From the IMG/VR virus record IMGVR_UViG_3300032267_000867, positions 1-57,441 of that record: a stretch of DNA of 57,441 nucleotides. One strand, given 5' to 3'. Below are positions 3,226 to 48,981 of the stretch, piece by piece; position 1 is the stretch's first letter, and each line of letters begins with the position of its first letter. The notes under the pieces were generated by a model, which saw nothing but the letters and a program-made list of their open reading frames with translations, was not told the origin of the DNA and searched no databases. This DNA comes from a virus. The position numbers were made by a program, and so were the translations under genes.

Positions 3226-4803
3226 TCAAAATTTGAAGCCTGTGATTTCCACATACTTGCCCACCGGGCGCACCTGAATTTCGGTCGGCTGGCGCAGCGT
3301 GCTGGCAGCGTTGATCGCCGCTTCGCTGTTTGCTGGGATCGGCGCATCGCTGCGGCGCTTCCACCATGTCTCCGCCTTTTGGCGCGGGTAGCCGATGTGG
3401 TCAAAGCAAATCCACTCGCTGTGGATGGTCAGCCCGCAAACGTAGGTCACACGCATCGACGACGGCTTGCCCGGCTTGGCGTGCAGCGCATACGTCACGT
3501 CTTTGACCGGAATCCATTCTGGTTTGATTTGCGTGGATAGCAGCGCCCCTGTTGAAGCCTGAGTTTGCAGCTTTGAACCTTGCACCTCAAATGGCGCACC
3601 GCACTCCGCGCACTCTCGGGCCGCAATCATGTTTTCAGCCCCGCATTCAAGGCAAGCCTTCGTCGTCGGCATTTCGCCAGCGCCGGGCCTTTTCTCTTTG
3701 ACGGATACGCAATCAAGCGGACCGTGCCGTTCGATATTCCCGCCCCAATCTAAAATCAAACAATTTTCTTTGTCAGGGAATAGGCGGGTTCCACGCCCAC
3801 AAGATTGGATATAAAGCCCCGCGCTTTTCGTGGGCCGGGCCAATCCTACAAGATCGACATGGCGCGCATTGAAGCCAACGGCTAGCGCGCTCACGGAAAC
3901 CAAGCATCGAATTTCTTGCCGCTTGAACGCCTCCACAATTCTGCTGCGCTCAGCGGATGGCGTTGTGGCGAAAACGCCTTCACACGAAAAACCTCGCTCG
4001 CGAATGGCGTCGCGCAACATTGTGCAGTGGTTCACGCCGCAGCCGAAAACAATCCAGCCTCGACGCGATGCGCCCTGTGTCACCAATTCATCCGCGATTG
4101 CAGCAACGGTGCTGGGGTCCGATGCGGCAACGTCAAGTTGACCGGCAATGAAGTCACCGCCGCGCGTCCCAACGCCGCTAGTGTCAATTGCGACACTGCC
4201 TTGCTTGCTGACAGGCGGCGAAAGGAATCCTTCCTCAATGGCGTCAACGATGCTGTATTCATAAACAATTCTGGAAAAGATCGCGTCCTTGCCCTTGTGG
4301 AGCATGCCGCTATCAAGCCGAAACGCCGTAGCAGTCAGCCCCACAACGCGAAGATGACCGACGTTAATCTCTCGCACACTGCGAAAGAATTTAAGCCACA
4401 TTGTATCAGCGTCGCGCGGAATGCTCTGCGCTTCGTCCACGATAATAAGGTCAACCCGCTGTAGAAGTTCGGCCTTGCGATGTATGGACTGAATGGAGCC
4501 AAAAATGACTTGCGCGCGTGCGTCGCGGCGGTTCAGACCGGCGCTGTAGATGCCCGCTGGGCATTCCGGCCAAAGCCCGATCATTTCGGCAAAATTTTGA
4601 GCGACGAGTTCTCGGGAGTGGGTCAGGACGACGATGCGGGTGTCCGGGTATTCCGTCAGCGCCCGACGCACAAACTCGCAAATTACCAGGGCTTTGCCGG
4701 TGCCAGTAGGAAGCACCGCTAACACGTTGTCATCCGCGACAGCCAGCCCATCCCAAATGGAATTTACCGCTTTTTCTTGATAGTGACGAAGGCTGATGGT
4801 CAT
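3226..4803 (-). CDS. SF2 DEAD/DEAH-type helicase with C-terminal zinc knuckle
   Basis: 525 residues. Helicase motifs are plain: Q-like RHYQEKA at 6-12, Walker A LPTGTGKA (31-38), DEAQ as motif II (123-126), GLTATA as motif III (155-160) and SCGRGTR as motif VI (about 333-339). After the helicase core comes a four-cysteine knuckle (CLECGAEN...CAECGAPF), often seen in phage and plasmid helicases of the SSL2/type III-Res type. It probably unwinds DNA in replication or recombination. The start overlaps the upstream HNH stop by one base (TAATG). It is flanked by the two paralogous HNH genes, the usual position of intron-less homing genes beside a conserved replication gene. Confidence 0.93.
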   Translation of the reverse strand: MTISLRHYQEKAVNSIWDGLAVADDNVLAVLPTGTGKALVICEFVRRALTEYPDTRIVVLTHSRELVAQNFAEMIGLWPECPAGIYSAGLNRRDARAQVIFGSIQSIHRKAELLQRVDLIIVDEAQSIPRDADTMWLKFFRSVREINVGHLRVVGLTATAFRLDSGMLHKGKDAIFSRIVYEYSIVDAIEEGFLSPPVSKQGSVAIDTSGVGTRGGDFIAGQLDVAASDPSTVAAIADELVTQGASRRGWIVFGCGVNHCTMLRDAIRERGFSCEGVFATTPSAERSRIVEAFKRQEIRCLVSVSALAVGFNARHVDLVGLARPTKSAGLYIQSCGRGTRLFPDKENCLILDWGGNIERHGPLDCVSVKEKRPGAGEMPTTKACLECGAENMIAARECAECGAPFEVQGSKLQTQASTGALLSTQIKPEWIPVKDVTYALHAKPGKPSSMRVTYVCGLTIHSEWICFDHIGYPRQKAETWWKRRSDAPIPANSEAAINAASTLRQPTEIQVRPVGKYVEITGFKF

Positions 4804-5372
4804 TACACCAGCCTCCCTTCACGGCGGGCAAAATCAATCGGGTCAGCGGCACTCTTTCGCATATTGCAAGGCGCGCACAACAGTTGAAGATTGCGAGGCC
4901 AATTAGACCCACCGCGCGAAATCGGCTGGATATGATCGACGTGATACCCACCCTTGATGGAAATGCGACAATGCCCGCATTTGCCCCGTTGAGCGTCGAA
5001 GATGCGCTGCACATCGGCGGCAATATGTTGTCCCTCGGCGTTTCGCATTCTTGCGCGGCGCGCGCGTTGAATGCAGAGTTTTTTCTCTGGGTTGGCAGCA
5101 CGCCAAGCGGCGTTAATTTTCGCAACTTTATCTTTATTATTTTTGCGATAATTTGCGCGGCCTTCTTTTACTTTTTTAGGATTCGCTGCATACCATGCTT
5201 CTTTATGTTCACGGTTGCACATAAAGCACAAACGATTGGAAGTATGACGCTCGGCAACATGGCCGCGAGGGCAAGGCTTGCCCGTAAAATATTTCTTCAA
5301 CCCGTTGGCGAGCGCGTCGCCTCGGCTAATGACAGGACGGAATTCGGGTGATAAATTTGATTCAGTCATCAT
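4803..5372 (-). CDS. Free-standing HNH endonuclease, copy 2
   Basis: 189 residues with the same layout as 2217-2966: an N-terminal CPRGH...CFMC knuckle, a basic AANPK linker (shorter here by about 60 residues), then CGHC...HVDH...NLQLLC...CN as the HNH core. The two cores are almost identical around GGYHVDHIQP, which points to a duplication and copy-in of the same element. Its stop overlaps the helicase ATG by one base (TAATG), the same geometry as copy 1 uses with its own downstream gene. Confidence 0.9.
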   Translation of the reverse strand: MMTESNLSPEFRPVISRGDALANGLKKYFTGKPCPRGHVAERHTSNRLCFMCNREHKEAWYAANPKKVKEGRANYRKNNKDKVAKINAAWRAANPEKKLCIQRARRARMRNAEGQHIAADVQRIFDAQRGKCGHCRISIKGGYHVDHIQPISRGGSNWPRNLQLLCAPCNMRKSAADPIDFARREGRLV

Positions 5373-5400
5373 AACCTCTGGTGTAGGTGTTGGTGGTTAG

Positions 5401-5434
5401 AAGCCGCCTCGGTGTTTCCAGCACCGGGCGGCTT
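5401..5434 (-). terminator. Hairpin after the exonuclease gene, candidate terminator
   Basis: Arms AAGCCGCC/GGCGGCTT (8 bp) continue, past a one-base bulge, into CGGTG/CACCG (5 bp) with a 7-nt loop. It lies in the 98-bp gap between the exonuclease stop (5471) and the HNH start (5372). The U-run is poor in both directions, so this could be a weak or bidirectional terminator, or an mRNA-stabilising stem. Confidence 0.5.
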
Positions 5435-5470
5435 TGTCATTTAAGCCAGAATCGTGAGCGACGGCAACTC

Positions 5471-6400
5471 TCATTCCTGGGGGCCGTCCCGCCATTCCTC
5501 ACCGTCGGGCATGGTGTAGAGAACCCAAAAGTCGCCAGCGTCAATTTGCTCCCCACGCACAAAAGCGGGAATATACAGGTGCGACGCACAGCCAGCGCGC
5601 TGGTTTTCTGGCGAGATGAGCGTGACGTAACGCGCGCAGAGCCATTCCCCCTCGGGCGCGGGGGCGGAGTGCAAGCATGATCGGCAATGCCGCTCGGGCA
5701 TGGCGTCGCCATGACAGACGGCGGAGTGATCACAGAATTTGCATTCAAAATGCGTGGGGTCACTGCTGATCCGCGCGGGCGGTTCGACGCTGGCGATGAT
5801 CCTGGCGGCCTTGACGACAAGGCGCAGCGCGCATTCGGCATCGTATCGAATGCGTTCTTGATATAGCTCGTCGGTGTTTTTGTTCACCGCAAGATAGAAG
5901 GCGCGCTCGATTCCGGCGAGGTGCATGTAAACCTGCATCTGGGCGAAGTGCTGGGGCTTCGATTTTTCGACGCCATCCTTCTTGAGCGACGTGAAGGATT
6001 TTTCGCTGTGCGTTTTGAATTCGCAAACATGCCACGCCTTGGGCGCCTCGGGGAATCCAACGGCGACGCTATCCATGCTGCCACCGAAATGCCCGGAGGC
6101 GTCGCGGAGGTTGAATTGCTGACCGGTCTCCGGGTCCAGCGCCATCACCGTCACGCCAATGCGACGCAGGTCGTGGATAAAGCGGCTTTCGGCTTGGTGG
6201 CCTGTTTCGAACAGGCGCAGCATCCGTCCGGAATGATTGGCGCGCGTCGCCCACCGCCAAGAATACCAGATGGCGCGGCTGCACTCCGCACCGATCATGC
6301 TGGCCCCCAAGTGGTTGCGGTAACCGGAACCCTGCTCGGCGGCGTAGGCGTCGTAGATCGCAGAGACGGTTTTGTCCTCTGCTGGTGGTAGTGCAACCAT
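5471..6400 (-). CDS. PD-(D/E)XK exonuclease, Cas4/RecB-like
   Basis: 309 residues. The nuclease core shows GHQAESRF (about 67-74), GGSMDSV with the metal-binding Asp (D110) and CEFKT with the E-x-K pair (E127, K129), followed by a QMQVYMHLAG helix (QxxxY motif). Cysteines at about position 40 and in CKFCDHSAVC fit the iron-sulphur cluster of Cas4/AddB-like nucleases. Downstream cysteines (CRSC and others) may form a further metal site. It lies directly downstream of the SSB-like and Sak4-like genes, so it likely resects DNA ends for single-strand annealing. The start at 6400 has an AGGGGAA ribosome site. Confidence 0.88.
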   Translation of the reverse strand: MVALPPAEDKTVSAIYDAYAAEQGSGYRNHLGASMIGAECSRAIWYSWRWATRANHSGRMLRLFETGHQAESRFIHDLRRIGVTVMALDPETGQQFNLRDASGHFGGSMDSVAVGFPEAPKAWHVCEFKTHSEKSFTSLKKDGVEKSKPQHFAQMQVYMHLAGIERAFYLAVNKNTDELYQERIRYDAECALRLVVKAARIIASVEPPARISSDPTHFECKFCDHSAVCHGDAMPERHCRSCLHSAPAPEGEWLCARYVTLISPENQRAGCASHLYIPAFVRGEQIDAGDFWVLYTMPDGEEWRDGPQE

Positions 6401-13663: not shown

Positions 13664-15355
13664 TCAGTCCTCCATGTAGAATTTTAGATTGGTCTTCAGC
13701 CGCTCGTCGTCCGGTGCCAAGGCCAGCGCCAATTGCCCTTGTTCAATGGCGACTGACTTCATGCCTAAGCGATACGCTGCAATAGCAGCATGGTCATGCG
13801 GTTGCGCGCCCCAAACTGCGGGATCAGATGAAAATGTGATGACTTTGATTGTGATCGCCAGCGCCCGCATGGCGTAGGCGAAGGATTCCGCCCACCGGCC
13901 CTGCCGGTAACACAACACCGAAAGCTCGCACCAAGGCTCCCGGGTGTTGGGTTCCTCCAGCGAAGCCAGTTGGAATTCCTTCTCCGCCTTGGCCTGCTCG
14001 CCCAATTGCCAATAGCATCGGCCCCGGGTCCGATAGGCAAAAGATCGGTTGTTTGGCCATTTGGCGCTGGGCATGGCGAGATAATGCGCGAAGGCGTCCA
14101 CGCATTCCTGATGCTGCGCGTGATAGTAAAGCTCGCGGGCGTAGTAAAATGCGCTGCGCTCACAGTTCGTGTCCTCGTCCCGCGCCGCCTTCAGCATGTC
14201 CAGGTATTGACCACGGCTTTTGGTCGGGTCGGGCAGGTGCTTCATCAACAGCTTGTCGGTGTCCACCCACGCCTCTGTAATGCGCTTATCCGCCGTGATG
14301 TATTCGTGGCAGAGATACGCCCACCGATAGCCGTGGCGGGAGTGAATTTTCTCGTTCTGGAAAATCAGCCCTTGGCCGCAGTCAAACGGGTAGCGCATCC
14401 GCGTCGTCTCGCCCAACTGCCAGAGGCGTTCTATTTCCTCTCGCCAGCCGGGTTCCAACACCTCATCCAGATCGACGCTGACACACACGTCGATGTCGGC
14501 AGGCACCAGGGCTAAGGCGGCGTTGCGTGCCACGTCGAACCGCCAGGGCCGCACGGAGATGGTATGCACCAGCGCGCCGCACCTCACGGCCAGTTCCGCC
14601 GTCTCATCCGTGCTGCCGGTGTCGGCAATCACGATGGCGTCGGCGTCCCGGGCGGCTTCGCAAAAGCGTTCTACAAATTGTGCCTCATTTTTGGCGATAG
14701 CGTAAACAGCGATTTTCAAGGGTGGCCTCGTTATCAAGCCCCAGCGCGTGGCGTATTGGGGGCGGTTTGCGACGATCCATGGCCGCGCCTCGTCGATGTG
14801 GCGCTGGTTGTCGTGCCCGATGGTGGACGATCCGACGTGATGCACATAGGCACGCGACACAAAATGCTGATAGCCCAGCGCCGAAAGGTCGGCGCACTGC
14901 ACGTCGTCCGAATACCAGTTGATTGGCGGAAACGGTGCGGCTTCAAAAGCCTCACGACTAATCCAAGCCAAGATGGGCGAGACGGCCTCAACCTCCACCG
15001 GGTCGGGATTCCGCATATGGTGAATGTTCTGGCAGTAGCGCACGGAGTCGGATCGCGCGGCGACAAGGCCAAGGCGCGGCACCGTAGCGCGCAGGGTGGC
15101 TACATCCTCCATCAGCACGCGGATGGTCGAGGGGTTCAAAACGATGTCGTCGTTGGCAATCAGGATTTCGTCGTGCGTCTCAAATGCTTTTTGCATTGCA
15201 TAATTGTATGCGGCGCCGAAATTGCCGTGGCCGGTGCGGAAGACCTGCAATTCGGTTTGTAGCGCGCCGTAGGCGTGGACGCTCTCGCGCATCACGGTCA
15301 GCGGCGAAGGCCCGGAGCCTTCAAGCCGCGTCGTACAAACTACCAGCGGAATCAC
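13664..15355 (-). CDS. Two-domain GT2-type glycosyltransferase with TPR tail
   Basis: 563 residues. The first domain (about 1-210) has the GT-A features NYAMQKAFETHDEILIANDD (a DxD-like acidic pair) and SPILAWISREAFEA. The second (about 213-390) is a fuller GT2 core: YAIAKNEAQFVE, ADTGSTDETA and VSVDLDEVLEP with the DxD motif. The last 170 residues look like TPR helices (RGRCYWQLGEQAKAEKEFQLA). Such enzymes transfer sugars to protein, glycan or DNA. The place between lysis and fibre genes suggests modification of the host surface or of virion fibres. Confidence 0.88.
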   Translation of the reverse strand: MIPLVVCTTRLEGSGPSPLTVMRESVHAYGALQTELQVFRTGHGNFGAAYNYAMQKAFETHDEILIANDDIVLNPSTIRVLMEDVATLRATVPRLGLVAARSDSVRYCQNIHHMRNPDPVEVEAVSPILAWISREAFEAAPFPPINWYSDDVQCADLSALGYQHFVSRAYVHHVGSSTIGHDNQRHIDEARPWIVANRPQYATRWGLITRPPLKIAVYAIAKNEAQFVERFCEAARDADAIVIADTGSTDETAELAVRCGALVHTISVRPWRFDVARNAALALVPADIDVCVSVDLDEVLEPGWREEIERLWQLGETTRMRYPFDCGQGLIFQNEKIHSRHGYRWAYLCHEYITADKRITEAWVDTDKLLMKHLPDPTKSRGQYLDMLKAARDEDTNCERSAFYYARELYYHAQHQECVDAFAHYLAMPSAKWPNNRSFAYRTRGRCYWQLGEQAKAEKEFQLASLEEPNTREPWCELSVLCYRQGRWAESFAYAMRALAITIKVITFSSDPAVWGAQPHDHAAIAAYRLGMKSVAIEQGQLALALAPDDERLKTNLKFYMED

Positions 15356-18381: not shown

Positions 18382-20960
<2,579 letters not shown>

Positions 20961-40883: not shown

Positions 40884-41906
40884 TTACTGGTACTGCATCG
40901 ACACGATGGCGATGGCTTCCGGACGCACACCCCAGCCGGAGGTCACGCGCAGTTCGGAAAGCACGTCAATCGCGCCGCCCGCAAGCGGGGTCGGGATTTC
41001 GCGCGGTGCCGCCATGTCGCAATACTGGAGCGTGCAAGCGGCGAGGCCGGGCGAAAGGTCAGCGAAGGCGTTGGTGTTGATCTTGTTCGCCTTGGGCTTT
41101 TCAACTTCAGGCAGAATGATCAACACGGCGTCAGTGCCACCGGCGCCCTTGCCGATCAGCGTGTCGTCGTAGCACCAGAGGATCTCGTCTTCGTTCATCT
41201 CACCGACGGCCTTGACCACACCGGCAGTGGACAGCGTGCCAGCGCCAGCGCGCTGGAATTGCGTCACCTGCACGATGTCCTGATACTCAAAGGCGCCCAG
41301 GATGCGCTGCGGGCCAAGCACCACGATGCGATGGCCAATGCCAAGCTGCATGGTGCGGGTCTTCAGGGCGGACACCTGCGAGAGCAGGAAGAACGCCATC
41401 TGGCCGTTGTCGTAGGTGACGACGGTGTTGTTGCCGTTGGAATCCGCAGGCAGGTTGACGCTAGTGGCGCCGCTGGTGTTCAGCAAGCCTTCGCCCTGGG
41501 CACCGTTGAAGCCATACAGCAGAGCAGAGCGCATAAGCTGGAAGTGGCCCTGGCGCATGCCAAGGCGCTGAGCCTCGACGATGCTTACGCCCCACTGCGA
41601 CATGGCAGCGGTGTCGTGGTGGTCATATTCAGCACGGACCCGCTGGAGGTAGGTCGGGGTGCTGATCTGACGCGCCACAACGCTGACGCTGGGGAGCGAG
41701 TTGTAACCGCTCTGGCCAGCCGCCGTAATGGTGCGAATGTCGAAGGCGTCGATATAGACGTAGAGATCGCCTTCGCCCAGGCGGACCTGGGGGTTGCCAC
41801 CGGCCAGAGCGTCGAACGCGCCCGAAGCCTGATTGTATTGCAACAGCTTCTCCGGCACCATGTAGTGCGGAGAAACCATTACGCGGGACGGGGTGATATT
41901 CGCCAT
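40884..41906 (-). CDS. Major capsid protein (DUF2184-like)
   Basis: 340 residues. SVVARQISTPTYLQRVRAEYDHHD, EAQRLGMRQGHFQLMRSALLYGF and HRIVVLGPQRILGAFEY with the closing REIPTPLAGGAIDVLSELR fit the HK97-fold DUF2184 capsid proteins. It follows the scaffold polyprotein and a virion protein. It builds the icosahedral shell. Confidence 0.9.
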   Translation of the reverse strand: MANITPSRVMVSPHYMVPEKLLQYNQASGAFDALAGGNPQVRLGEGDLYVYIDAFDIRTITAAGQSGYNSLPSVSVVARQISTPTYLQRVRAEYDHHDTAAMSQWGVSIVEAQRLGMRQGHFQLMRSALLYGFNGAQGEGLLNTSGATSVNLPADSNGNNTVVTYDNGQMAFFLLSQVSALKTRTMQLGIGHRIVVLGPQRILGAFEYQDIVQVTQFQRAGAGTLSTAGVVKAVGEMNEDEILWCYDDTLIGKGAGGTDAVLIILPEVEKPKANKINTNAFADLSPGLAACTLQYCDMAAPREIPTPLAGGAIDVLSELRVTSGWGVRPEAIAIVSMQYQ

Positions 41907-41918
41907 TGCAGCGGCTCC

Positions 41919-42824
41919 TTAAATCTGAATGAGCGCGGCGGTGCCGCTGTTGTTCCAGTTGGCGACGTTGTTCACCGGGTCCCAGACAACGGTCTTGCTG
42001 TTGCCCGACTGAACGCGGAGAACCTTGCACGGCAGCGCGCCCTGCAACTCAACAATCGTAATGGTGCCGCCCAGCGTGCCCCAAACCGAAGCATCACCCG
42101 GCAGCAAGAACGTGAAGTTCTGGTTGTTGGTGAAGGTGTTGACCGTCTGCGTCGTGTTGATGGCGGAAACCAAACCGGTGCCGGTGTTGGTTACGCCTGC
42201 GAGAGTGAAGCTGTCGCCCACGCCAGCAACCGGGGTTGCCACGGAGGCCACAACCGCAACCTGACCGCCGTTAGTGGCGGACCAAGTGAGCGAAGTCACA
42301 GCGTAGGTGGCCGAAGCGGAGGCCACGAGGCACTGGGCGTTCAAGTCCCAATACACCGCCTGCGCGATGCTGTTGTTCACAAGGCTCGCGGCAAGCGAAG
42401 GATCGCAAGCCACGGCGATGCGAGCGCCGCTGTTCAGCGGGAAGTAAGGCACCGTCATGCCGCCAGCGGCGGTCGGGACGTTGCTCTGGGGCCAGGACAC
42501 CCAAGCGGTCGCTTGGTTGAACGTGGAGAAGCCAATAAGCTGCTTCGCGGCGCCCGCGCTGAGCGTGGTGGCGCGGCCAACGATGGGGCCAAGTTCAGGA
42601 CCAACCGACGTGCTGTTGCCAGCCAGGGCCGGGACGTTGGCGTAAACGCCCACGCCGCCCCACATCGGATAGCTCTCGTTGGTCGCCAGCAGACCACCGG
42701 CAAGTGCATAGCGCACCGCCGGATCGTCCATGGCAACACCCTGGACGAGGCCGTAGGACTGAGTGCTGAAACCACCAATGTTGGTGGTGGTCAGCATCGG
42801 GTTAAAAGAGACTGAATTTGCCAT
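41919..42824 (-). CDS. Virion protein next to capsid, FCCH-like domain
   Basis: 301 residues. The N-terminal part is Gly/Ala-rich. Residues about 170-260 hold a domain (GVGDSFTLAGVTNTGTGLVS...NNQNFTFLLPG) like those in sheath and baseplate J. Position between scaffold and capsid genes suggests a decoration or cement protein. No exact family is recognised. Confidence 0.75.
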   Translation of the reverse strand: MANSVSFNPMLTTTNIGGFSTQSYGLVQGVAMDDPAVRYALAGGLLATNESYPMWGGVGVYANVPALAGNSTSVGPELGPIVGRATTLSAGAAKQLIGFSTFNQATAWVSWPQSNVPTAAGGMTVPYFPLNSGARIAVACDPSLAASLVNNSIAQAVYWDLNAQCLVASASATYAVTSLTWSATNGGQVAVVASVATPVAGVGDSFTLAGVTNTGTGLVSAINTTQTVNTFTNNQNFTFLLPGDASVWGTLGGTITIVELQGALPCKVLRVQSGNSKTVVWDPVNNVANWNNSGTAALIQI

Positions 42825-42836
42825 GATGCTCTATCC

Positions 42837-43685
42837 TTAGTGCATAGCGTTGCGACGGAAGAACGGCTTTGCGATTGCGCGCGGAGCCGTCCGGAATTCG
42901 CCCATCCATGCGCTAGGCTCACCGACGAATTCAGTGATCACGCGGTCGGCGGCGTCACGCTTCTTGATCGCGCGGAGGCTGCCAGCCGAGACACCAACCG
43001 GGCTGCGAGCAGCGGCAGTGGCGTCGGCGTAGATGGCGGCTTCCGCGATGTCGAGCGCGTTCTCAGGCAGGTCACGCAGCGGAACCGACTTCCAGGCTTC
43101 GCTGTGGCTCTGCATGCCCTTCGCCAGACGGATGCGGTAGGCGGGGGCCGTCTCACCCTGGAGCGGGGCGGGGGCGCGCTCACCGAATGCGCTGTAAACG
43201 CTATCGGCGCGGGCCTGATAGTCGGCCATCGCCGCGTAATCCGCATCGCTCATGCTCTTCGGCATCTGGCCGATGAGAGCGGAGAGGCGGCGGATTTCGG
43301 CAGCGACGTGCGCTTCGTTGGCGGAGCGACGCGCGCTGTCGGCCTTCATGTCGTCATCGGCTTTCTTGAGGGCTTCCGGCATTTCAGCGTCGGCCATCAG
43401 CTTCGGCGGCATAGCGCCACCGGCGCGAACCATCGCAGGCTCTTCGACTTCAAGCTCAACATTGTCGGCCATGTCGTCGTCATCGTCGTCAGCGGCCTTC
43501 GCCATCTGAGCGGCCTTGAGGTCCGCCATGGAATCCAGTCGGCCCTTCATTTCCTGATGAGCCTCGTGCATTTTGTCCATGCGGCTGCACAGGGCGTCAA
43601 TGCCCATCAGCAGCTTGTCGAGGTTGGCGCCGTCAGCGTCCGCACGCTTTTCAGCGCCTTCCATTTCTTTCTCAACTTCAGCCAT
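42837..43685 (-). CDS. Nested scaffold protein, internal start
   Basis: 282 residues in the same frame as the fusion, beginning MAEVEKEMEGAEK. GGAGGT, a full anti-Shine-Dalgarno match, lies 6 bases before this ATG (43692-43697), far better than the ribosome site of the parent gene. It would supply excess scaffold, as lambda Nu3 does within C. This is inferred from the site; nothing in the coding sequence contradicts it. Confidence 0.8.
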   Translation of the reverse strand: MAEVEKEMEGAEKRADADGANLDKLLMGIDALCSRMDKMHEAHQEMKGRLDSMADLKAAQMAKAADDDDDDMADNVELEVEEPAMVRAGGAMPPKLMADAEMPEALKKADDDMKADSARRSANEAHVAAEIRRLSALIGQMPKSMSDADYAAMADYQARADSVYSAFGERAPAPLQGETAPAYRIRLAKGMQSHSEAWKSVPLRDLPENALDIAEAAIYADATAAARSPVGVSAGSLRAIKKRDAADRVITEFVGEPSAWMGEFRTAPRAIAKPFFRRNAMH

Positions 43686-44681
43686 AATATTACCTCCGGA
43701 GGTTGTTTCAATGGTTTCGGGCAGTTCGACTCCGGCGGGAGGACCGCCCTTGTCCCATACACCCTCTTCGCAAATAGCAAGGTGGTCTAATAGACTGGGT
43801 TTGCCTTCTATCAGAAGATTAGACCCGTCCTCAAGCCTTTCCTGCACGTTGCCATCCGTTTGACGGAACACAACGGCAGGTGAGGTCGAGAGTTGCTTCG
43901 ACGCCATTTGCATGGCGGCTTCGTCATCGTAGATTTTGGCAATTCCCCAGACTTCTTCGCCCTGGATATAGGGCAAGAGAATGGTGCCGATGACGCGATT
44001 GATGAATTCTTTGCTGTCCAGCTTGCCCGCTTTTGGATGCTCCCAGATCACGGGAAGCCCGTTGCAGCGGTCAAGAAAATGCTGGTTAAGGTAGTTTTCC
44101 GGCTTACGGTAAACGTATTCGTCAATCTTGCTGCGGTAGGCGGTGCCGGTGCCGGTAATGCGCAGCGCGAATAACCACACGTTTTCGTAGTGCTGCGGGC
44201 TGACAAGATCGCCCTTCATGATTGCCCGCGCCACCCCAAGCTCGTCCATTGACAGCTTTTCCAAAGCGACGCGGGCGCCCGGGTGCAGCGGTGTGCGGGG
44301 AGAATTAACGCTGCACCAAGCGAATGACGTATGCTCGCCGTTCAGCAGCGGATCGAAGCGGCCTTCGACGCGCTGCAAGAACGTCGTGTAATCCACCGGA
44401 TCGCCAATTGGCGGCACGGGGTTAACGTCGGCGGGTTGCTCCTCGCCGGGCGGGAATTGATTGTCACTGATGCGCCGCGCCCAAACGCGGCGGGGGCCGG
44501 GCGGGCAGAAGCCTAGCTCCTCCTCGCACTCGCGCACCGCCGTTTGTTCAGGCGTCTCGTCGCCTTTCTGTTCGCCGCCAGGAAAGCACCATGCACCGGG
44601 CCAATCGCCGCCGGGGCCGCGCTTCAACAGAAGCACCTCGCCTGCGTCGTTCAGAAACATGATGCCAGCGGCTTTGATCAC
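42837..44681 (-). CDS. Nudix hydrolase - prohead protease - scaffold fusion
   Basis: 614 residues from a GTG that overlaps the upstream stop (GTGA). The N-terminus has a perfect Nudix box: G36-x5-E42-x7-RE-x2-EE-x-G (residues 36-58). About 170-330 matches DUF2213 prohead proteases (YVYRKPENYLN, NRVIGTILLPYI, EGKPSLLDHLAIC). The last 280 residues are a charged, helical scaffold with a poly-Asp stretch. The protease and scaffold would shape the procapsid; the Nudix part may hydrolyse a nucleotide or be a folded decoy. Internal initiation is likely (see 42837-43685). Confidence 0.9.
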   Translation of the reverse strand: MIKAAGIMFLNDAGEVLLLKRGPGGDWPGAWCFPGGEQKGDETPEQTAVRECEEELGFCPPGPRRVWARRISDNQFPPGEEQPADVNPVPPIGDPVDYTTFLQRVEGRFDPLLNGEHTSFAWCSVNSPRTPLHPGARVALEKLSMDELGVARAIMKGDLVSPQHYENVWLFALRITGTGTAYRSKIDEYVYRKPENYLNQHFLDRCNGLPVIWEHPKAGKLDSKEFINRVIGTILLPYIQGEEVWGIAKIYDDEAAMQMASKQLSTSPAVVFRQTDGNVQERLEDGSNLLIEGKPSLLDHLAICEEGVWDKGGPPAGVELPETIETTSGGNIMAEVEKEMEGAEKRADADGANLDKLLMGIDALCSRMDKMHEAHQEMKGRLDSMADLKAAQMAKAADDDDDDMADNVELEVEEPAMVRAGGAMPPKLMADAEMPEALKKADDDMKADSARRSANEAHVAAEIRRLSALIGQMPKSMSDADYAAMADYQARADSVYSAFGERAPAPLQGETAPAYRIRLAKGMQSHSEAWKSVPLRDLPENALDIAEAAIYADATAAARSPVGVSAGSLRAIKKRDAADRVITEFVGEPSAWMGEFRTAPRAIAKPFFRRNAMH

Positions 44682-44794
44682 TTGTTGCCTTTGGTCGCGC
44701 TTTTGCCCGCGCCGGAAGGCGCGGAGCCGCCATCATTATGGGCGGTCGAGTTCATGCACGCAATGGTTTTATGGAAATCAAGTTTTTTTATCAC
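44678..44794 (-). CDS. Small gene of 38 residues, unknown function
   Basis: It opens with a GTG that shares a base with the TAG of the gene before it (TAGTG) and closes with a TGA inside the GTG of the next (GTGA). It reads IKKLDFHKTIACMNS... with a Gly/Ser/Lys tail. GGGG lies upstream. The perfect coupling on both sides argues for translation, although nothing similar is recognised. A GC hairpin (44708-44725) lies inside it. Confidence 0.5.
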   Translation of the reverse strand: MIKKLDFHKTIACMNSTAHNDGGSAPSGAGKSATKGNK

Positions 44795-45084
44795 TAGCAG
44801 CCCCAGCGGCGGAGAGATTTGTTGATGCGGCTGTCCGGATCATGCGCGGCTTCGCTGCCGGTGTTTTTCTTTTTCATGCCCTTCATGCGGGCGCAGAAGG
44901 ATTTGTGCCTGCGGTTTTTTGGGTCTTTGGTGGGAGCGCGGAGCGTGCCACCGGTTTCTTTGTGATACGCCTCGCGCCCGGCTTCGGTCAGCCCACCCGC
45001 TTTTGATTTCAGGGGTTTCGCTTCGGCGTCGTGGCGTGCCAGGGTCTGCTGAATTCGGGAAACAGCGTCGGCTATGGTTTTCAC
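44794..45084 (-). CDS. Small basic protein, DUF6321-like
   Basis: 96 residues from a GTG at 45084 (GTGA overlap with the upstream stop, GGAGGAA before it); the longer frame to 45180 lacks support. GGLTEAGREAYHKETGG, LRAPTKDPKNRR, SFCARMKGM and DPDSRINKSLRRW form a pattern I know from DUF6321 proteins, found in phage and bacterial genomes with no known role. Confidence 0.8.
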   Translation of the reverse strand: MKTIADAVSRIQQTLARHDAEAKPLKSKAGGLTEAGREAYHKETGGTLRAPTKDPKNRRHKSFCARMKGMKKKNTGSEAAHDPDSRINKSLRRWGC

Positions 45085-45884
45085 TTGCTTGATTCCTCCA
45101 GCTTCGCCTTGCCCTTTTCGGTCAGCATGTTGTCGGGCAAATAACGGGGGCTGTAGATGTAGCGATACCAGCACCGGCAAAACACCTCTTCGCCGGGCTG
45201 GGTGATGTCATCGGTGTAGCCCGCTGGCCCGCACTTCATCAAGCCAGATTTCATGGCCCAGTTGCCGCGCATGGTGTAGACCTGCCGATCCCGCTCCTTG
45301 TGGTCCTTGCGGTAATTGTAACCTTTTTGACGCCAATGCGAATGCCACTCGCCTGCGATGGCGCCGCCGTCCGTCGCTAGGATTTCGGAGATGGACGCCA
45401 CCAGCTTGTGGCCCTGGTCGATGATCACGCGGCGTTCCTCAAACGGAAGCTGCTTGAGCGATTTCTTGATGTCGCCCTTGGTTTCGTTCTTGTCCACCAC
45501 GTCAGAGCCACCTTGCGGGATGGACGTTGACCAGCCGCTAAAGCGTTGCAAGGTTTTCTGGATCGCCGCCTCGCGGTTGAGGCGGATAAGCTGAGCGCTG
45601 GCCATAATGCGCCTGTCGAGTTCGGTGCGTAGCTTTGGTTTGATCTGGTCCAGGGTAAAACGCGACACGCCCGGGTTGAGTTTAAGAATCGCGCCCTTGT
45701 CAACATAGCGCGCGTAAACGCTGGCCAGGGATGCGCGCAAGGTGCGTTCCATCACCGCCGTTGGTGTCAGGGACCGTTCCGCCGCTTGCTTAATCAGCAC
45801 CAGCCATTGATCGACGCGCAGCGGGTCATAACCGTTGTCGGTGATGTCACGCACGGCGGCAGTGATGGTCTCGTAGAAATTCAC
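45081..45884 (-). CDS. Head morphogenesis protein (Mu F / SPP1 gp7-like)
   Basis: 267 residues. A helical N-terminus leads to KNETKGDIKKSLKQLPFEERR, EWHSHWRQKGYNYRKDHKERDRQVY and the GEEVFCRCWYRYIY ending that is characteristic of the minor head protein family. It follows the portal, as usual, and is thought to go into the procapsid with it. Confidence 0.88.
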   Translation of the reverse strand: MNFYETITAAVRDITDNGYDPLRVDQWLVLIKQAAERSLTPTAVMERTLRASLASVYARYVDKGAILKLNPGVSRFTLDQIKPKLRTELDRRIMASAQLIRLNREAAIQKTLQRFSGWSTSIPQGGSDVVDKNETKGDIKKSLKQLPFEERRVIIDQGHKLVASISEILATDGGAIAGEWHSHWRQKGYNYRKDHKERDRQVYTMRGNWAMKSGLMKCGPAGYTDDITQPGEEVFCRCWYRYIYSPRYLPDNMLTEKGKAKLEESSK

Positions 45885-46096: not shown

Positions 46097-47509
46097 TCAG
46101 ATGCGCTCGGGCCTTGGTGCGTGCATGGTGGGTTCCTCCGCCTGCTGGGGCGGCTCGTATTGTGCCAGCGCCTCATAATCCAGCACCAACGGCTGCGGGA
46201 ATAGCGTCTTGTTTTCGCCGCTGCTGTCGATTGCCCATTCGATCAACCGCGCCTTGTTGTCGGGGTCCATCATCGGCATCAGCACCTGCATCATCGAAAT
46301 GATGGCTTTCTGCCGCACGTCCTCGGCTTTGGTGTCGGCTTCCGGGTCTTTCAGCAGGCTTGGCCATGTGGCCACAAAGCCGTTTTTCCAGCGGTAGAAA
46401 GCGTCGGTGTAGGAAACGTCCTGATACTCGGGGAAGTCGGCCTGGATGGTGGCGTAGAAATCTGGATTCCAAGCGCGACGCATCACCACCGCATCGAAAA
46501 AATCGTAAGCTGGCTCCAGCCATTCGCGGATGCCGTCGATATAGCGCGCGATGTTTTTGGCGTCCTCGGTGCCCTCGCCAAAGCCCGCCACCATCGTCTC
46601 GTTGTCCAACAGCTTGGCGGGCATGTCGGCAGCGGTGGCGATGTTTTTGAGGATGTTGGTGCGGGCGAAGGTTCCGGCGCCGTCGATGTTTTGCAGGTTG
46701 AGGCTTTCGACGCTTTCGGTCAGGTCGATAGACATGACGTTATTGGTTTGCGCGTCTTTGAGCAGTTGGCGCTTGATGCCCGCCATACGCTGCATGGCGT
46801 TGTCGATGATCGAACCGGGAGCCTTCAGCTTGGCAATGATCAGCCCCGCCTTTCGCGCCACCATGTCGTCCGTCACCATTGTGCTGACGAAGGATTTCAA
46901 CGGGTATAGGGCGCGCTGGAACACGGATCGGCCAACGTAGCCGAATGCGCTGGTGGTGTATTCGATATACACCGGCTGCTCATTCATCAGCACGACGGAA
47001 CGGCTTCGATGGTAGGGTTTGCCTGCAACTGTGATTGCCGCTGACTTCAGGAAGTCTGGCGCATTCGGGTCCTGATTGAGCACAAGAGACCCAGCTGTGT
47101 TCAGAGGGTCAAGGATGTTGAAATAGAGCTTTAGGTCGCCCAGGCGGTCGAGAGGCAATTCAGCTTCGCTGTCCACACCATCTGCGCCGATAATGATGGA
47201 GCCAACGCCGTATATGCGGGCGATGCTGCCGAGTTGGGCGATGTATTTGTCGGCGTGGACGCGCTTCCATTCGGTCTCAAAAGCCTCGCGCACGCGGGTT
47301 TCGGGAGCGTTCTGAATGCTGATTTGCCGCGCCTGCGATTGCGCCATAGCGATGGGCGCATCAACCATTTTCCGGCCCAGCGGGTGATAGCTGTAGATTG
47401 TTTTGCAAAGCTGGTAGCTGACATCGGAACCGGGAATCAGTTCGTCGGCCATCAGCAGGGTTTGCAGCGATCCGCCAAGGTTGGCGCCGGTGACGGTAAT
47501 CGTGGACAT
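46097..47509 (-). CDS. Portal protein (DUF1073-like)
   Basis: 470 residues. The N-terminal SYHPLGRKMVDAPIAMAQ, then the crown helices (DMVARKAGLIIAKLKAPGSIIDNAM), the SVESLNLQNIDG strand and the tail QKAIISMMQVL fit portals of the DUF1073 family. Some members carry an extra Acb1-like anti-CBASS region; this one is of plain portal length and shows no such tail. It forms the dodecameric DNA gate. Confidence 0.9.
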   Translation of the reverse strand: MSTITVTGANLGGSLQTLLMADELIPGSDVSYQLCKTIYSYHPLGRKMVDAPIAMAQSQARQISIQNAPETRVREAFETEWKRVHADKYIAQLGSIARIYGVGSIIIGADGVDSEAELPLDRLGDLKLYFNILDPLNTAGSLVLNQDPNAPDFLKSAAITVAGKPYHRSRSVVLMNEQPVYIEYTTSAFGYVGRSVFQRALYPLKSFVSTMVTDDMVARKAGLIIAKLKAPGSIIDNAMQRMAGIKRQLLKDAQTNNVMSIDLTESVESLNLQNIDGAGTFARTNILKNIATAADMPAKLLDNETMVAGFGEGTEDAKNIARYIDGIREWLEPAYDFFDAVVMRRAWNPDFYATIQADFPEYQDVSYTDAFYRWKNGFVATWPSLLKDPEADTKAEDVRQKAIISMMQVLMPMMDPDNKARLIEWAIDSSGENKTLFPQPLVLDYEALAQYEPPQQAEEPTMHAPRPERI

Positions 47510-47689
47510 TTAATCTACGCCTTTTTCGGACAGCCGCCGGTGAGCGGTGAGGTGGTCTTCAAACGGGCCGGATGGCGGAATGCTGACGGCAACCCGCGCC
47601 ATGGCCAACGCAGCGCGAAGCGCATACGCGGGCACGTCGTAGCCGTGCTTTGCAAGAGCGACGGAGAGCATTTGAACCGCGTCGGCCAT
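47510..47689 (-). CDS. Small protein between terminase and portal, unknown
   Basis: 59 residues from ATG 47689, overlapping the terminase stop by one base (TGATG), ending at the base before the portal. Helical (AVQMLSVALAKHGYDVPAYALRAAL-like region with GYDVPAYALR), then PPSGPFEDHLTAHRRL. No function can be read. Confidence 0.75.
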   Translation of the reverse strand: MADAVQMLSVALAKHGYDVPAYALRAALAMARVAVSIPPSGPFEDHLTAHRRLSEKGVD

Positions 47690-48981
47690 CAGAATCCCTC
47701 TTGGTTGCCTAGTGCGATAGCGATGGAATAGCAGAATGCGTCGAGCAGGTCATCTTCGCCCATGTCTTTGACGCCCAGGGTGAACGTCAAAACCTGTTGC
47801 ATAAGGTGGTTTCTCGTCGCGCCCTTGTATATCATCGTTTTTTCGTAGGCGTGGCGAGAAAATTTCACTTTGCCTTGATGGACGTAGCCGGAAACGGAAA
47901 TGGCGCGTTCCGCCTTGCCCAGGCTGGTCAACTTGCTGTCGATGCTGTGGGTATTCCAGCCGCGTCGGACACCCTGTTGCAGCAGCACCATGCCGGATGC
48001 CTTGTCCTCAATCCAGACGCCCAGGTTGCCGATCTGCGCGCCACATTGGGCTGAGAATTCCTCTAGCCGGGCGAAGATGCTGGGAAGCCAATGCTCCAGC
48101 AGCGCGCCTTCAATTTGGCAGACTTCATAGTCGAGGATGATCAATTCCGGCTTCATGCCGTATGCGCCACGGGCGCAAAAAATGACGGCGGTGCCGTCAT
48201 TGTCTTTGCCGGTTTTGGTGGCGGTATCAACGACGGCGAACACGCCAGCGCACTGCGTTGGGTATTCCACCGGGGCGCCGTCAGCGAGCAGGTTTTCCAG
48301 CTTGAAGAATTGGGTGCCAGACCAATCCACGAATTCCGCAAGGTATTCCTGTTTCCACACCATTGGCGGGCGTTCCGCCTCAAGCCGCACCAACTCCTCT
48401 TGCGGCATGTAGGGGTTGCTGGCCGTGGGGGCGTGGAATTCGACAAAGCCGTGTTCTGGCTCGTTGCAGATGCGCCAGAAGAAATTGTCGGGATCGACGC
48501 CGTTCGCGTTGCTCAGGGCCGTCGCCGTGCCCTTGTAGTCGAGCAGCGTGGGCTGGATGGCGCGGTTCCAAATGTCCATCATGTTCGGCTTGGTGAACGC
48601 AGCCTCGTCGATATAGACATCGTGATATTTCCGAGACCGGCCCGCGCTTTCGTTTTCCAGGGTCCAAAATTCAATCCGCCCCCCGGTGATGCAGCGAATG
48701 ACGCCTTCGGTTTTGTTGTGCGATTTCACCACCGGGCGGAGCATGTCGAGCAGTTCGTCGTAGATTTCGGTTTGGTATTTATACGCCGGGACGAAATATC
48801 CTTGAATGCGGCCCTTCATAATCCGGTCGCCCGCCATGGTCTTGGCCATGCTGGTTTTGCCCCAGCGACGCCCGCAGCGGATCGCGCGAAATCGCGCGGG
48901 CTTGCCGTTGACGTCAAGCATTTTAAACGCGCCAACCTGCCCGGTGTGTAGTTCGGGCAGCTTCACGACAATTTCAGACAT
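47689..48981 (-). CDS. Terminase large subunit
   Basis: 430 residues. ATPase: Walker A CGRRWGKTS (36-44), Walker B VYIDEAAF (122-129). Nuclease: Asp in VVDTATK (D252), WIEDKASG (E325, D326) and GEDDLLDAF (about 409-416). It packages DNA into the procapsid through the portal. The short N-terminus is normal for this group. It overlaps the small subunit by eight bases. Confidence 0.95.
   Translation of the reverse strand: MSEIVVKLPELHTGQVGAFKMLDVNGKPARFRAIRCGRRWGKTSMAKTMAGDRIMKGRIQGYFVPAYKYQTEIYDELLDMLRPVVKSHNKTEGVIRCITGGRIEFWTLENESAGRSRKYHDVYIDEAAFTKPNMMDIWNRAIQPTLLDYKGTATALSNANGVDPDNFFWRICNEPEHGFVEFHAPTASNPYMPQEELVRLEAERPPMVWKQEYLAEFVDWSGTQFFKLENLLADGAPVEYPTQCAGVFAVVDTATKTGKDNDGTAVIFCARGAYGMKPELIILDYEVCQIEGALLEHWLPSIFARLEEFSAQCGAQIGNLGVWIEDKASGMVLLQQGVRRGWNTHSIDSKLTSLGKAERAISVSGYVHQGKVKFSRHAYEKTMIYKGATRNHLMQQVLTFTLGVKDMGEDDLLDAFCYSIAIALGNQEGF

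Follow-up and report, generated by a model that had tools for sequence, protein, structure and literature searches.

A single gene of the 57,441-base virus contig analysed here (the whole stretch is called the window below) is best read as a two-product head-assembly gene that carries a catalytically intact Nudix domain as a passenger, which is likely packed in the head and acts on an NDP-X compound. We give this reading a probability of about two in three. The contig encodes a tail sheath and thus comes from a phage with a contractile tail. In gene direction the order in the window is small terminase, large terminase, portal, MuF-type protein, the 614-aa gene, the phrog_6268 gene, major capsid protein, and then neck and tail genes (Table 1). 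As far as they are annotated, the Shewanella phage QDWS, Pantoea phage PdC23, Klebsiella phage Chronis, and Yersinia phage YenM_29.18 have the same head-operon order, and the part common to these four is large terminase, portal, one head gene, the Nudix-protease-scaffold gene, one head gene, and the major capsid protein. Their phrog_6216 proteins have the same three parts, occupy the same place in the operon, and are 36-49% identical to the window protein.

Table 1. Position of the Nudix-protease-scaffold gene, its parts, and the neighboring head genes in the window
Feature	Position	Strand	Remarks
Nudix - DUF2213 head protease - scaffold gene	42837..44681	-	GTG start, 614 aa; phrog_6216 over whole length
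Long-form GTG start codon	44679..44681	-	weak Shine-Dalgarno AAGG at 44688-44691, spacing 6
Nudix domain, residues 1-145	44247..44681	-	PF00293 E 3e-19 over residues 4-141; AF2 pLDDT 89
Nudix box, residues 36-58, GEQKGDETPEQTAVRECEEELGF	44508..44576	-	exact GX5EX7REUXEEXGU
Predicted DUF2213/assemblin-like head maturation protease, residues 146-311	43749..44246	-	phrog_530, DUF2213, and AF2 fold
GGAGGT Shine-Dalgarno of nested start	43692..43697	-	spacing 6 nt to ATG 43683-43685
Nested scaffold ORF, 282 aa	42837..43685	-	in-frame ATG at 43685; coil/acidic segment and conserved C-terminal domain
Next head gene, phrog_6268 (unknown function)	41919..42824	-	Pantoea phage PdC23 counterpart annotated 'endosialidase'
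Major capsid protein	40884..41906	-	phrog_264; PF09950 just below cut-off
MuF-type head morphogenesis protein	45081..45884	-	phrog_324 E 2e-29
Portal protein (DUF1073/Phage_portal_3)	46097..47509	-	profile matches
Terminase large subunit	47689..48981	-	profile match

The PHROG family that matches the whole 614-aa protein, phrog_6216 (E 5e-150), is one of unknown function. The PdC23 and Chronis counterparts are annotated as 'NUDIX hydrolase' and that of one of the four phages is called 'glycosyl transferase', and neither the nested scaffold nor the protease role is annotated in any of the four. The GenBank names 'NUDIX hydrolase', 'TolA protein', and 'glycosyl transferase' hide a head protease and scaffold, and the annotation is corrected here. 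Megablast of the 614-aa gene region against phages gave no match and a scan of genome contigs for relatives of the region confirmed none. The relatives compared below are the matches listed, and since this sample leans to close kin and may lack DNA relatives of the window itself, the prevalence counts are indicative only. Between the MuF and Nudix genes of the window lies a small ORF (44794-45180, minus strand) that ends in KSFCARMKGMKKKNTGSEAAHDPDSRINKSLRRWGC, a C-terminal motif that recurs in eight or more PHROG families without an assigned function (phrog_727, 4689, 11180, and others). In the relative L254 (1088-2855) the MuF gene directly upstream holds an intein-like Hint segment ending in ...VANRIITHNC.

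Judged by its conserved residues, the Nudix domain appears to be catalytically intact. The first-pass annotation had called the Nudix box perfect, and the match to the consensus is indeed exact. R50, E51, E54, and E55 are invariant in all 52 family members compared and E42 is present in 51 of them; besides the box glutamates, E116 is near-invariant in the same 52. Of the 106 relatives among the matches listed that carry the domain, 101 have the box without any deviation. The domain is also under purifying selection, with a dN/dS of 0.03-0.15 between close relatives that is low, as it is for the protease. When the AF2 model was compared with the PDB, 522 fold matches were obtained at E up to 1e-3, a MutT-type Nudix protein being matched at E 2e-9, and the best 50 of the 522 are described as Nudix-type or related hydrolases. 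When solved structures were compared by profile, Nudix proteins of the MutT, CTP pyrophosphohydrolase, and NudI types came nearest, and the highest score was 59.5 bits. ADP-ribose pyrophosphatases and NpnN hydrolases carry as a signature a Pro about 15 or a Tyr about 16 residues past the Nudix box. In the family alignment, positions 12-21 past the box hold neither a conserved Pro nor a conserved Tyr, and the signature of these subclasses is not seen in the family. Since Nudix enzymes cut NDP-X pyrophosphate linkages, the cyclic oligonucleotides that had been put forward at first as a substrate class fit poorly; ADP-ribose derivatives, NpnN, capped RNA, and (d)NTPs are better candidates.

The top fold and profile matches would suit nucleotide housekeeping, that is, MutT-like sanitation or recycling late in the infected cell, with the place in the head operon setting only the time and level of expression, and the existence of relatives with a separate Nudix ORF is in keeping with this. 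However, housekeeping has no need for the fusion to a procapsid protease that is found in most members, nor for the fusion to the portal of Bcep43, and although it is possible we consider it rather unlikely.

That the middle segment is a head protease is weakly indicated by the window sequence alone but holds firmly for the family. The match to phrog_530, 'head maturation protease', has an E of 1e-6, and PF09979/DUF2213 scores 18.3 bits with the whole protein and 21.8 bits with the domain alone, both below the Pfam gathering cut-off of 22. Since 39 of 48 relatives match DUF2213 at E up to 0.01, the window protease is by family evidence a divergent DUF2213 member. Throughout the 48 relatives, residues H215, S265, T266, S267, D299, and H300 (numbered as in the window protein) do not vary. 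The AF2 model of the segment (pLDDT 92) has T4 gp21 among its best PDB fold matches, and nearly all the others of the best 50 are herpesvirus maturational proteases; with E 0.008 at best and TM no higher than 0.46, the scores are modest. The similarity to gp21 and to assemblin is remote only, and both of these lack a Nudix domain. The protease profile had no match among PDB sequences and it was fold comparison alone that gave matches. We read the segment as an assemblin-like fold with a candidate Ser-His-His or Ser-His-Asp triad, the triad being drawn from the pattern of conservation. The view that the Nudix domain heads a capsid protease polyprotein with a scaffold, proposed in the first-pass annotation, is supported by the phrog_530 match, by DUF2213 in the relatives, and by the modest fold matches to gp21 and herpesvirus proteases. 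The herpesvirus protease gene also gives a nested scaffold. The lambda protease gpC has a ClpP-like fold; it belongs to another protease family than the window protein, which in addition has the Nudix domain at its N-terminus.

The start of the nested scaffold ORF is conserved throughout the family. In all 16 relatives checked by hand (the window included) there is an ATG 13-21 codons past the GVWDK motif with a Shine-Dalgarno (SD) match of at least 4 nt, as against 22 of 240 other in-frame ATGs with a comparable SD in the same 16. Among the matches listed, 85 of 92 relatives have an SD-preceded ATG or GTG 12-22 codons past the motif, compared to 179 of 4494 control windows (4%); the 92 were dereplicated at 90% identity, the 11-codon test window was set after the pattern had been seen in the first 16 relatives, and because the sequences are related these counts are not independent trials. 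The nested SD and ATG are more than chance, and the GGAGGT noticed in the first-pass annotation is real; it stands 6 nt before the ATG that would start a scaffold of 282 aa. The residues just upstream of the nested start vary freely (SGGNIM, GETKM, EELKM, GSEM, ADSM, EAEIM), so that conservation of the protein sequence does not account for the SD. Moreover, the scaffold is a stand-alone ORF in the relatives L056, L087, L095, and L100, where it begins with MTEEEE, MTEEER, MADEPD, or MAEVEQ, like the nested product; the MAEVEQ of L100 compares with MAEVEK in the window. A readable SD precedes the stand-alone ORF in L056, L087, and L100. Such ORFs lend indirect support to the predicted production of a separate scaffold protein.

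The two starts differ in strength, the long form having only a GTG with AAGG and the scaffold an ATG with a full GGAGGT, which fits a low output of protease chains and a high output of scaffolds. When the RNA surrounding the nested SD, where the palindrome CCTCCGGAGG lies, was folded, it gave no unusual structure (z +0.57) and therefore a regulatory hairpin is not claimed at this site. As in lambda C/Nu3, the internal start is in frame and has a ribosome-binding site to itself, and it is conserved. In L009-L012, L005-L008, and L045-L050 the middle of the scaffold is a fast-changing, strongly charged repeat of the HRKDARKHRMDDDDD type, and this region exceeds its counterpart in the window scaffold by about 60 aa or more.

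The Nudix domain is optional on the same head module. Of 103 dereplicated relatives among the matches listed, 76 have it fused and 7 have it as a neighboring ORF, and in the other 20 none was found. Mapped onto the protease tree, these three states call for 13 changes; the starred branches by themselves require at least 8 for the fused state. The whole Rac-like clade is without Nudix: in Rac-SA53 and Actinobacillus pPE4, whose DUF2213 proteins have the same protease-scaffold and the same nested start as the window, no Nudix domain was found in the gene or elsewhere in the genome. In the Nudix-free relatives outside the Rac clade whose upstream region was checked, other N-terminal segments or nothing precede the protease, and no Nudix. 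In L007 the Nudix domain is a 141-aa ORF with an intact box that overlaps the protease ORF, and in split genes of the L007 and L045 types the last Nudix helix remains on the protease ORF. Just upstream of the separate Nudix gene of L007 is a 429-aa ORF (4484-5773) with a HEYGHAID zinc-metallopeptidase-like motif. L016, L024, L203, L207, L210, and L254 have a shared type of N-terminal motif ahead of the Nudix or the protease; it is common among relatives and found also where Nudix is absent.

The helix left on the protease ORF, together with the very short linker that the model predicts between the C-terminal helix of Nudix and the N-terminal helix of the protease, might mean that Nudix serves assembly itself and, by binding nucleotides or in a purely structural way, tunes the protease or the scaffold. 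Such a role is very unlikely because Nudix is repeatedly absent where the same head module is kept, is missing altogether from Rac-like phage genomes, and retains catalytic glutamates that are needless for a purely structural function. The earlier idea that nucleotides are sensed during assembly is likewise weakened, since the same head module occurs in relatives without Nudix or with a separate Nudix ORF.

In the mechanism that we propose, the long Nudix-protease-scaffold chain would begin at the weak GTG and be made in few copies, while the 282-aa scaffold would be produced in excess from the strong internal start. The C-terminal scaffold domain, being present in both products, would draw the few protease-Nudix chains into the procapsid, and at maturation the assemblin-like serine protease would cleave the scaffold and probably itself too. 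The Nudix domain would be a passenger that is dispensable for head assembly. Its linkage to a protein that the procapsid encloses would most likely bring it into the head, and in the infected cell it would then act on an NDP-X compound, for which an ADP-ribose derivative, NpnN, a damaged dNTP, and capped RNA are candidates. We infer packaging and injection from this linkage; fusion to a head protein, one mark of a virion-packaged effector, is found in the Nudix domain. On the other hand, the relatives with a separate Nudix show that the domain can do without a covalent link to the protease, and this weakens the case for packaging. An optional Nudix could also act late in the producing cell instead of in the next host.

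With the window-family Nudix profile, the C-terminal domain of the Bcep43 portal gives 93 bits, and a stand-alone gene of Burkholderia phage Bm1, which lies in the head-gene region near the protease, gives 95 bits; the Nudix genes of Vibrio phage 2.275.O, RaK2, and PA5oct give 76-94 bits. With T4 NudE the profile scores 39.5 bits and covers only profile positions 4-63, the first half, as compared to 76-95 bits over the full length elsewhere, and T4 NudE was rejected as the nearest kin. These proteins probably form a Nudix subfamily of virion genes that is separate from T4 NudE, with the C-terminal motif E[HS]xxxxW...LHP; the boundary is provisional, cellular Nudix proteins having been compared within the PDB only. 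Its attachments are to a head protease, a portal, a head-gene neighborhood, and a tail-sheath neighborhood. In Vibrio 2.275.O, RaK2, and PA5oct (L264, L262, and L263), which are jumbo myoviruses, the Nudix gene comes directly after the tail sheath or sheath stabilizer gene. The text of the RaK2 virion paper does not mention Nudix, and no virion proteomics of these phages was found in the literature.

It may also be that the virion delivers the Nudix domain as a counter-defence enzyme, which at the start of infection destroys nucleotide immune signals or their products, such as the ADP-ribose derivatives of NAD-consuming defences. Yet its nearest relatives by sequence and fold are MutT/CTP-pyrophosphohydrolase types, and the Pro that marks ADP-ribose pyrophosphatases is not conserved. 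The intact catalytic residues under purifying selection, the patchy presence as for an accessory arms-race module, and the recurrence of the subfamily in virion gene clusters argue for counter-defence, which was also predicted in PMC9503650 for fusions of Nudix with head proteins; with virion presence and substrate being predictions, we regard it as unlikely. That the subfamily is repeatedly attached to virion-building genes so as to be packed, delivered, and to remove a nucleotide immune signal in the next host, with the low-copy long form fixing a small dose of enzyme per capsid, is a speculation that we hold to be quite unlikely.

A Nudix domain in the procapsid had at first been called unexpected, but this kind of fusion is already on record. 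The DUF2213-NUDIX architecture is in Pfam and is mentioned in PMC8770471, and a 2022 survey (PMC9503650) describes Nudix fused to MuF, to portal, and to a capsid-processing serine peptidase. The last are the same kind of fusion as the window gene. The survey proposed that the fused Nudix domains are packaged and injected and that they remove defence signals of the ADP-ribose type. That survey groups such fusions with T4 NudE, whereas the window family is matched over its full length by the Bm1, Vibrio 2.275.O, Bcep43, RaK2, and PA5oct proteins. Lambda gpC/Nu3 is the classical nested protease-scaffold gene (Shaw and Murialdo 1980, as cited in PMC8508860); like the window gene, it combines protease and scaffold in one gene and the scaffold is the C-terminal product of an internal in-frame start. 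Thus the core idea of the fusion is already in print. Not found there are the conservation of the nested start across the family, the gene splits at each of the two domain borders, the recurrent lack of Nudix, and the separation from T4 NudE. The family offers a clean system to ask whether phages load enzymes into heads by the protease-scaffold route, and because fused, unfused, and missing versions of Nudix occur naturally on the same head module, dispensability, packaging, and effect on fitness can be compared directly.

Two other genes in this phage genome were noted. A collagen-repeat protein of 858 aa (18384-20957, minus strand; PF01391 E 9e-42) is encoded beside the tail fibre adaptor and fibre genes, and a family 2 glycosyltransferase with TPR repeats is encoded at 13667-15355 on the minus strand.
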